Source: a virus. From it: DNA of 25,044 bases. Where the stretch lies: the IMG/VR virus record IMGVR_UViG_3300042556_001597, positions 1-25,044 of that record. One strand, given 5' to 3'. The notes under the pieces are model-generated. The model was not told where the DNA came from. It was given only the letters and a program-made list of their open reading frames with translations, and did no database searches. This document shows, in pieces, positions 1,701 through 3,488 of the stretch; the first letter of the stretch is position 1, and every line of letters starts with the position of its first letter. Position numbers and translations under genes: made by a program.

Positions 1701-1895
1701 TTAGTTCTTTTTAATAGGTATAGGAACGACTACTTTCTTTTTCATTGCAAGAGGTATATTACTTCTATCTTCGACTGAACCTATTGGCCCATAGAATGCG
1801 TTACCACATCTTGTTAGATAATCTTCATCACTTTCATTGGGAAGTCTTTCACAATGTCCTTCGTATACCTGTAATAATAATTCTTTAAGTTTCAT
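1701..1895 (-). CDS. Hypothetical protein, 64 aa
   Basis: A short protein with an N-terminal helix (MKLKELLLQVYEGHCERLP), an acidic turn (NESDEDYLTRCGNAF) and a basic C-terminus (KKKVVVPIPIKKN). It begins at ATG 1895, just downstream of the terminator hairpin at 1919-1945. It must therefore be transcribed either by read-through or from a promoter in that small gap. It is followed after one base by the next gene. No family recognised. Confidence 0.55.
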   Translation of the reverse strand: MKLKELLLQVYEGHCERLPNESDEDYLTRCGNAFYGPIGSVEDRSNIPLAMKKKVVVPIPIKKN

Positions 1896-2064: not shown

Positions 2065-2404
2065 TTTCGTTTTGTTTAAGTTAGAAAATAAGTCAACCTG
2101 TTCCGATATCGTACTAATAAATATAACTTAAGTAAAAGAAAAACACTTAATTCAGTTATGTGTGTATCATACATCATGTCAAAATTGCTCCTATACACAA
2201 AAAAATTGACCCCGGTATTCGCACGTATCCGACCCGATTTTACGCAACTCGTTTTTGCCTAGTTACACGAAACTCGACGGGTTCAATCGGGCAGAATGAG
2301 CACAAAGAAACCGATAGCTCTTTTACCTGCTATCGGCTCATCCTTTTCAGGAGCTTCTTTGTAACCATTAAAAAATAAAAATATGAAACTAAACCAAACT
2401 TCTA
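2065..2404. other. 340-base gap without a protein gene
   Basis: No start codon on either strand opens a convincing frame here. Plus-strand frames exist, but they run through the inverted repeats and have phage-untypical composition. The stretch 2200-2345 is visibly richer in G and C than its surroundings and holds the nested inverted repeats described in the ncRNA entry. The part 2065-2190 is AT-rich and should include the promoter or leader of the 36-aa gene at 1954-2064; I could not place its elements. Confidence 0.6.
2199..2362 (-). ncRNA. Candidate structured non-coding RNA
   Basis: Several inverted repeats nest here. An outer stem ACAAAGAA (2302-2309) / TTCTTTGT (2355-2362) encloses two hairpins: CCGATAGC (2311-2318) / GCTATCGG (2329-2336), and TCCT (2341-2344) / AGGA (2349-2352), whose loop reads GAAA on the minus strand. 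Together they would make a three-way junction. Further along, CCCGATT (2233-2239) can pair with AATCGGG (2285-2291), or its overlapping ACCCG (2232-2236) with CGGGT (2278-2282); these exclude each other. A run of seven T on the minus strand (2205-2199) follows. The minus strand is preferred because of the GNRA-like loop, the T run and the direction of all neighbours. The family is not recognised. It could be a regulatory leader of the gene at 1954-2064 or a separate small RNA. Confidence 0.45.
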
Positions 2405-2660: not shown

Positions 2661-2891
2661 TTAAGCTTGTGCTTTCGGGGGTTGTTGTGTGAATATTTGT
2701 TTTAGATATTCATCTTCATCCTCTATGTCCTGCTCTGTTATTTCATTATATCTTTCTAATAACTTAATTGCGGACCTGATTTCATTCAATTGTTCAGACG
2801 CAGACCACTTAGGTTTGCCATCTTGCAGTCCTTTAATCTTCTTCATTAATACTATCTCGTCTGCTTTAAGTTTTTTGATTGCGTAATCCAT
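2661..2891 (-). CDS. Hypothetical helical protein, 76 aa
   Basis: The sequence suggests two or three helices: MDYAIKKLKADEIVLMKKI, a turn around DGKPKWSASE, then LNEIRSAIKLLERYNEI, with an acidic tail (EDEDEYLKQ). The pattern is coiled-coil-like. ATG is at 2891; its first 40 bases overlap the 3' end of the zincin gene in another frame. The overlap is long for this region, so the zincin's end or this start could be slightly different. Function unknown. Confidence 0.6.
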   Translation of the reverse strand: MDYAIKKLKADEIVLMKKIKGLQDGKPKWSASEQLNEIRSAIKLLERYNEITEQDIEDEDEYLKQIFTQQPPKAQA

Positions 2892-3286
2892 TTGTTATTT
2901 TGTTTTATATGTGTCCAACACTCTTTTGTGTATTTATCTTCGTTTCTTCTTGCTGCCCTTTCGTATGGGTTTCGACTATACGAACCAGGGTATTTATAAT
3001 ATTTTGTTCTAATTGGTTGTAATTGATGTGTCCATTCGTGAATGCAAGTTTGTATTAATTCTCTTACATCAGCACATTGGTCCCAGTATATCCATATTTC
3101 GTTATCGTCTGCATCATATGCTCCACAATCCATATCTTCATATCCTTTCACTATGTTCCAGATTGGTTCAAACTTTTTTCGTTTGTTCACTCCTAAATGT
3201 TTTTTGCACCACCTAAGAGCCATATTACTTATACTTACAGCAGGAGCACGACCTAACGCTTGCACCTTAGTGTTTAAATAAATCAT
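2852..3286 (-). CDS. Zincin metallopeptidase-like protein (HEWTH), 144 aa
   Basis: The protein contains CIHEWTHQ (HExxH at about residues 83-87) and, about 19 residues further, NPYERAAR, whose Glu (109) is placed like the third zinc ligand of a gluzincin. His83, His87 and Glu109 would bind zinc and Glu84 would activate water. The hydrophobic stretch before it (ADVRELIQTC) fits the active-site helix. Small HExxH proteins with NPYE are seen in tailed phages, usually without known substrate. The ATG at 3286 directly follows the tRNA/terminator unit. There is no signal peptide, so it acts in the cytoplasm if active. The C-terminus overlaps the next gene by 40 bases. Confidence 0.75.
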   Translation of the reverse strand: MIYLNTKVQALGRAPAVSISNMALRWCKKHLGVNKRKKFEPIWNIVKGYEDMDCGAYDADDNEIWIYWDQCADVRELIQTCIHEWTHQLQPIRTKYYKYPGSYSRNPYERAARRNEDKYTKECWTHIKQNNKWITQSKNLKQTR

Positions 3287-3415: not shown

Positions 3416-3488
3416 AGCGGTGGTGTGGACTTGAACCACAACCTCTCACCTGGAGGGTAAGTATGCTAACACATTACACCACCACCGC
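3416..3488 (-). tRNA. tRNA-Gly(TCC)-like gene, non-canonical loops
   Basis: The 73 bases fold as a tRNA on the minus strand. The acceptor stem is GCGGTGG/CCACCGC with T as discriminator base, the D stem is GTGT/ATAC, and the T arm is TGTGG-TTCAAGT-CCACA. The variable loop is GAGGT. The anticodon arm is odd. TTACC/GGTGA pairs perfectly but leaves only a five-base loop CTCCA; the seven-base alternative, CTTAC/GTGAG around CCTCCAG, puts TCC at the anticodon but has C instead of the invariant U33. A U73 discriminator fits glycine. A CCA (Trp) reading would need two mismatched stem pairs. The D loop separates the usual GG by a T. No CCA end is encoded. The gene may be active, or a degraded or decoy tRNA. 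Confidence 0.75.

Follow-up and report, generated by a model that had tools for sequence, protein, structure and literature searches.

The 25,044-base viral record analyzed here (IMGVR_UViG_3300042556_001597, positions 1 to 25,044; hereafter the window) carries an element that is a real structured, non-coding RNA, because more than 50 related phages keep it by compensating mutations. We hold this structural part of our best explanation with high confidence. As a whole, that explanation is a transcription-control RNA at an early/late gene junction, comprising a terminator-like domain and a core, to which we assign a probability of about one half; its mechanistic part, control of transcription at the junction in the manner of the put RNA of phage HK022, is a tentative proposal by analogy. 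The safest reading is a phage RNA element in which a branched, terminator-like domain is joined to a compact core RNA.

Extent, carriers and novelty of the element

The element lies on the minus strand at about 2363-2199 of the window, with a 3' extension to about 2116 (about 165 nt in length, or 250 nt with the 3' part), so that conservation runs some 80 nt past the end at 2199 given in the initial annotation. Its features, all on the minus strand, are as follows.

2300..2363, minus: Domain 1, the three-way junction, from fold and covariation
2355-2363/2301-2309, minus: P1, closing stem
2352-2341, minus: P2, small hairpin with a GAAA loop
2338-2329/2318-2309, minus: P3, large hairpin with U-rich tail UUUCUUUGUGC, from fold and covariation
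2298..2303, minus: RTGCYC hexamer, here GTGCTC, directly 3' of the T-rich tail of P3 and overlapping the 3' strand of P1
2276..2297, minus: P4, variable linker or hairpin region, about 20 to more than 100 nt in relatives
2199..2275, minus: conserved core GAGTTTCGTGTAACT..ATCGGGTCGGATACGTGCGAATACCGGGGTCAATTTTTTT, about 77 nt, from the alignment of 43 relatives and matches of model R1
2244..2266, minus: P5 hairpin, GUAACU (2266-2261)/AGUUGC (2249-2244), A-rich loop, from its own pairing against swapped and shuffled strands
2212..2232, minus: P6 hairpin, UCGG (2232-2229)/CCGG (2215-2212), conserved 13-nt loop AUACGUGCGAAUA, few compensatory types
2199..2256, minus: candidate long-range helix joining the A-run of the P5 loop (2256-2252) to the U-run (2205-2199), own against swapped partners
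2161..2177, minus: Pc hairpin (UGUA UGA UACA), covarying pair types, two loop classes
2127..2158, minus: AT-rich motif CTGAATTAAG..CTTAAG, matching in inverted orientation a motif upstream of the genes starting at 2623 and 8260
2116..2126, minus: start motif ATATTTATTA, recurring at 1909

Nearly all window genes lie on the minus strand. One of them (2852-3286, minus), whose product bears a HEXXH motif, is related to genes in 55 IMG/VR contigs, and 45 of these contigs have the intergenic DNA at 2405-2065 conserved downstream of the same gene pair. Sequence pattern scans located the element in about a dozen further contigs, and model searches of whole or partial records gave one copy per genome. 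In one relative, G006, the usual neighbors (the protease and the next gene) lie at 48 kb, while the element lies at 64 kb, flanked by an AAA ATPase gene and a thymidylate-synthase-like gene (identified by sequence reading); the usual downstream genes were not found within the 67 kb examined. Given this relocation, the element is not bound to one neighbor gene and is not simply its leader.

The 238-kb and 117-kb relatives read almost wholly from one strand, and the 238-kb relative encodes T4-like genes for DNA polymerase, a DnaB-like helicase, an SbcCD-like nuclease, baseplate wedge, portal, major head protein and tail sheath. Terminase genes are present in three long relatives, with that of the 221-kb G003 having its closest cultured match in Flavobacterium phage immuto (52%). 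This gene set and the terminase match indicate that the carriers are T4-like phages, probably of Bacteroidetes, with Flavobacterium-like water bacteria as the likely hosts. The 238-kb phage (G001) also has a predicted tmRNA gene at 58753-59123 and 26 tRNA genes at 59-69 kb.

The element occupies a gene-free, GC-richer island (0.44-0.47 against a background of about 0.31), as the initial annotation had described; no protein frame is conserved across it, and any given frame is open in 0-5 of 49 relatives. The annotation had also recognized no family, and neither did Rfam: a strict search of the window with Rfam 15 returned a single match, the tRNA at 3416-3488, and a permissive search of the region and its relatives gave nothing near threshold. 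Direct DNA and protein searches of cultured phages yielded no match to the element or the neighbor gene; matches of the core model in Flavobacterium phage immuto and Microcystis phage Mel-JY01 (E 0.4-0.9) were attributed to chance upon inspection of the sequences. Similarly, the exact element pattern is absent from bacterial genomes, and four bacterial matches to a shorter pattern are due to chance, lacking the flanking core. Inspection by eye revealed no hammerhead or HDV-like cores. Among known phage and prophage RNAs, GOLLD and ROOL are also structured and of unknown function (PMC12286853). GOLLD is often longer than 800 nt and sits near tRNA islands (PMC12286853), whereas the present element is about 165 nt (250 with the 3' part), lies far from the tRNA block in long relatives and has no Rfam match.

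The three-way junction and the terminator-like hairpin

All parts of the three-way junction proposed in the initial annotation are present: the outer stem (2302-2309/2355-2362), the large hairpin (arms 2309-2318/2329-2338) and the small hairpin with its GAAA loop (2341-2352), on the minus strand. The folding energy of the single window sequence, which had been suggested as a check, falls only mildly below that of shuffles (z -1.55 minus, -1.99 plus) and is not convincing alone; over 40 distinct sequences, the domain has a mean fold z of -4.65 on the gene strand. The sequences were aligned as two clades, the mixed set being misaligned by MAFFT and giving nothing with RNAalifold. In the two clade alignments, 99.4% and 94.4% of cells are paired and 19 and 11 cells are changed on both sides; none of 500 shuffles and no slid version matches the observed paired cells, both-side changes or covariation score, so that the compensatory changes foreseen by the annotation do occur among relatives. 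Pairing of P2 and P3 is kept across 26 and 28 distinct hairpin sequences, respectively. On the gene strand, P3 contains 24 G.U against 2 A.C pairs, an excess which points to the three-way junction being an RNA of the minus strand, where it had originally been placed. P1 is weakly tested because it is nearly invariant in the window's clade; it is missing or altered in other clades.

P3 of distant relatives is a simple terminator-like hairpin ending in a T5-T8 tract. It is followed by T7-8 in L128, L130, L134, L135, L141, and L117, and in these loci and L020 a GC-rich hairpin with a T-run is visible by eye; in the window the P3 tail is TTTCTTTG. A consensus scan of 1850-2700 found no intrinsic terminator in the window, and the initial proposal that the final T run is a terminator does not hold for the window phage, although some relatives have a good terminator-like hairpin at that site. 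The terminator role belongs more clearly to P3 than to the final T run.

The canonical terminator formed by P3 and its T-tract in many relatives, together with TTTTGAYATA and a start motif downstream, would suit an element that is only an elaborate intrinsic terminator insulating early from late genes, with the core as the promoter region of the next gene. Like intrinsic (Rho-independent) terminators, the element has P3 with its T-rich tail in relatives and P6 with T6 in subfamily II; unlike them, it is branched by P1 and P2 and continues into RTGCYC and a core with a conserved 13-nt loop. Nearly all listed relatives, subfamily II among them, have RTGC after P3, and the RTGCYC hexamer is kept almost everywhere, though a pure terminator does not need it. 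We consider a terminator alone improbable: conservation is higher past the terminator, in RTGCYC and the core, than in the terminator; a further terminator-like hairpin in the window, seen by eye near 1920-1950, lacks such an extension; and G006 retains the core in a different context.

Between P3 and the core, the P4 region contains the CCCGATT of the switch initially proposed. The pairing of CCCGATT with AATCGGG exists in the window, as a riboswitch-like leader with exclusive pairings would have it, but it is not conserved and the adjacent genes vary: across relatives, the longest complementarity is 4.59 nt against 4.76 in shuffles, and only the window and L004 reach 8. The switch between CCCGATT/AATCGGG and ACCCG/CGGGT was therefore abandoned, and a riboswitch leader is extremely unlikely.

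The core RNA

The core has the layout GAATTTCRTGTAACT...CGGGTCGG, the 13-nt loop, then CCGG..TTTTTT, and its best-conserved columns in the alignment of 43 relatives are GAATTTCRTGTARCT, CGGGTCGG..AATACCGGGG, and the T-run. Model R1 of the core, with only 3 base pairs and so driven mainly by sequence, detects G006, L053, and subfamily II (E 1e-7 to 1e-10). The P5 hairpin is supported: in its variable block, the phage's own 5' strand beats those of other phages (1/300 permutations) and shuffled blocks (0/300), and compensating examples can be seen by eye (GUUAC/GUAGC in L112, GUAAAG/CUUUGC in L134, CAUGU/ACGUG in L135). P6, just 3-4 bp in the window's subfamily, is supported as a short hairpin in one subfamily; it is extended in L128, L130, L134, L139, L140, and L141 (CCGGG-UCGG-13 nt-CCGA-G-CCCGG-UUUUUU). 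The A-run in the P5 loop may pair with the U-run, with own partners beating swapped ones in all but 46/5000 permutations, a figure made optimistic by kinship; this is suggestive only. When the core was scanned for covariation in general, no nested helix except Pc stood out clearly, and RNAalifold returned almost nothing for the core.

Several sequences adjoin the core in particular phages. A variable poly-C tract (about 6-10) lies directly upstream of it in L128, L134, L136, and L140 of subfamily II. The sequence TCGATAGTTATAAA, which among all fetched loci adjoins this element only, stands before the core in L020, L032, L034, and L035 and after it in L029, L033, L046, and L067. Repeats of TTATATTCATTTGCACC occur just upstream of the core at about 7000 in L053, and in this phage only.

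The core could alternatively be a stand-alone small RNA gene acting in trans, a stand-alone phage RNA having also been suggested in the initial annotation, in which a short minus-strand transcript, ended by P6 and the U-run, would bind a protein or host RNA through the 13-nt loop. This possibility, which we rate as somewhat doubtful and yet almost as likely as transcription control at the junction, is favored by retention of the element in G006, where all neighboring genes differ, and by subfamily II, where P6 is a 9-bp terminator-like hairpin with an unusually long conserved loop followed by T6. In the window's subfamily, however, only a weak hairpin precedes the U-run, a sigma-70 scan recognized no promoter before the core, and no 11-nt antisense target was found near start codons in five phage sequences.

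A near-fixed length and conserved primary sequence count against an RNA reading of the core, as they also fit a protein-bound DNA site. Such a site, a replication origin or the target of a phage regulator with the blocks read as double-stranded DNA and the hairpins serving as the upstream gene's terminator, would agree with the few covarying pairs, the single copy per genome, the repeats in L053, and the Pc hairpin, in which mixed G.U and A.C pairs favor neither strand. It is nevertheless the less likely reading of the core, and an unlikely one: P5 shows covariation and folds better on the gene strand (-4.83 kcal/mol, compared with -2.88 kcal/mol on the opposite strand), neither repeats nor dyads cluster around the element in the 238-kb and 117-kb relatives, and GC skew keeps its sign there. 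An iteron-type replication origin is not supported, given no clustered repeats (only L053) and no change in the sign of GC skew.

Genomic setting and possible mechanism

In G001 and G002, the element separates a small-gene block with high GC skew from a baseplate/late block with lower skew, and skew drops at the element without changing sign in the 238-kb and 117-kb relatives. This arrangement suggests that the element sits at an early/late gene boundary, the block names being inferred from gene content. In the 3' part, TTTTGAYATA is conserved 3' of the T-run, just before Pc. The AT-rich motif of the 3' part is also found inverted upstream of early genes: CTTAnATAAAATAAATTCAGYTAAG stands just before start codons at 2630-2652 and about 8270 of the window (gene strand) and is inverted at 2127-2158, at the 3' end of the element. 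The start motif at 2116..2126 is a probable phage promoter of the downstream gene. Its gene-strand form ATATTTAT lies a few nucleotides before many start codons (at 1909 and 2124 in the window, minus strand) and in G001 has 48 occurrences on the gene strand and 14 on the opposite one, often a few nucleotides before ATG; it is possibly a late promoter with near-leaderless mRNAs. Read on the opposite strand, its extended form TATTTATA gives the T4 late promoter TATAAATA. Downstream, at window 1701-1895 and in relatives, genes starting M[KI][LK]KELL..EGxCERL presumably resemble T4 capsid-targeting leaders.

Under our preferred reading, transcription control at the junction, the element would be transcribed from the upstream small-gene unit, and P3 with its U-rich tail, in the form of a terminator of that unit, would end or pause upstream transcription. 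Where polymerase passes P3, the compact core would fold on the nascent transcript and either act on the polymerase, as HK022 put does in cis to suppress pausing and termination, or remain as a small stable RNA; a start motif of their own, ATATTTAT, seems to serve the downstream late genes. Counting against this, a P3 that terminates well would leave the core rarely transcribed in those phages where the two are only about 19 nt apart.

HK022 put is the nearest working model, likened by general shape alone and not by sequence. It is an RNA of about 70 nt with two stem-loops and a triple-stranded part, and is present in two copies per genome downstream of early promoters (PMC9378689). The two share a phage origin, size and a position ahead of long gene blocks; P5 and P6 within 77 nt, P6 being short in the window's subfamily, would correspond to the two stem-loops of put, and the A-run that might meet the U-run would parallel its triplex. 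They differ in copy number, two in HK022 against one here, and in placement, put following early promoters whereas the element follows a terminator at the early/late junction.

T4 late genes are controlled by proteins. An RNA-only device by which T4-like phages of Bacteroidetes switch from early to late genes, consisting of a terminator with a polymerase-modifying nascent pseudoknot directly behind it, would be a protein-free antiterminator outside the lambdoid phages; we judge it quite improbable.

With an alignment of over 50 relatives and a covariance model, the element is directly testable, and a new RNA family would aid the annotation of freshwater and marine viral genomes. If the preferred reading is true, a conserved structured RNA at the early/late junction would represent a layer of RNA control in abundant, poorly studied T4-like phages.
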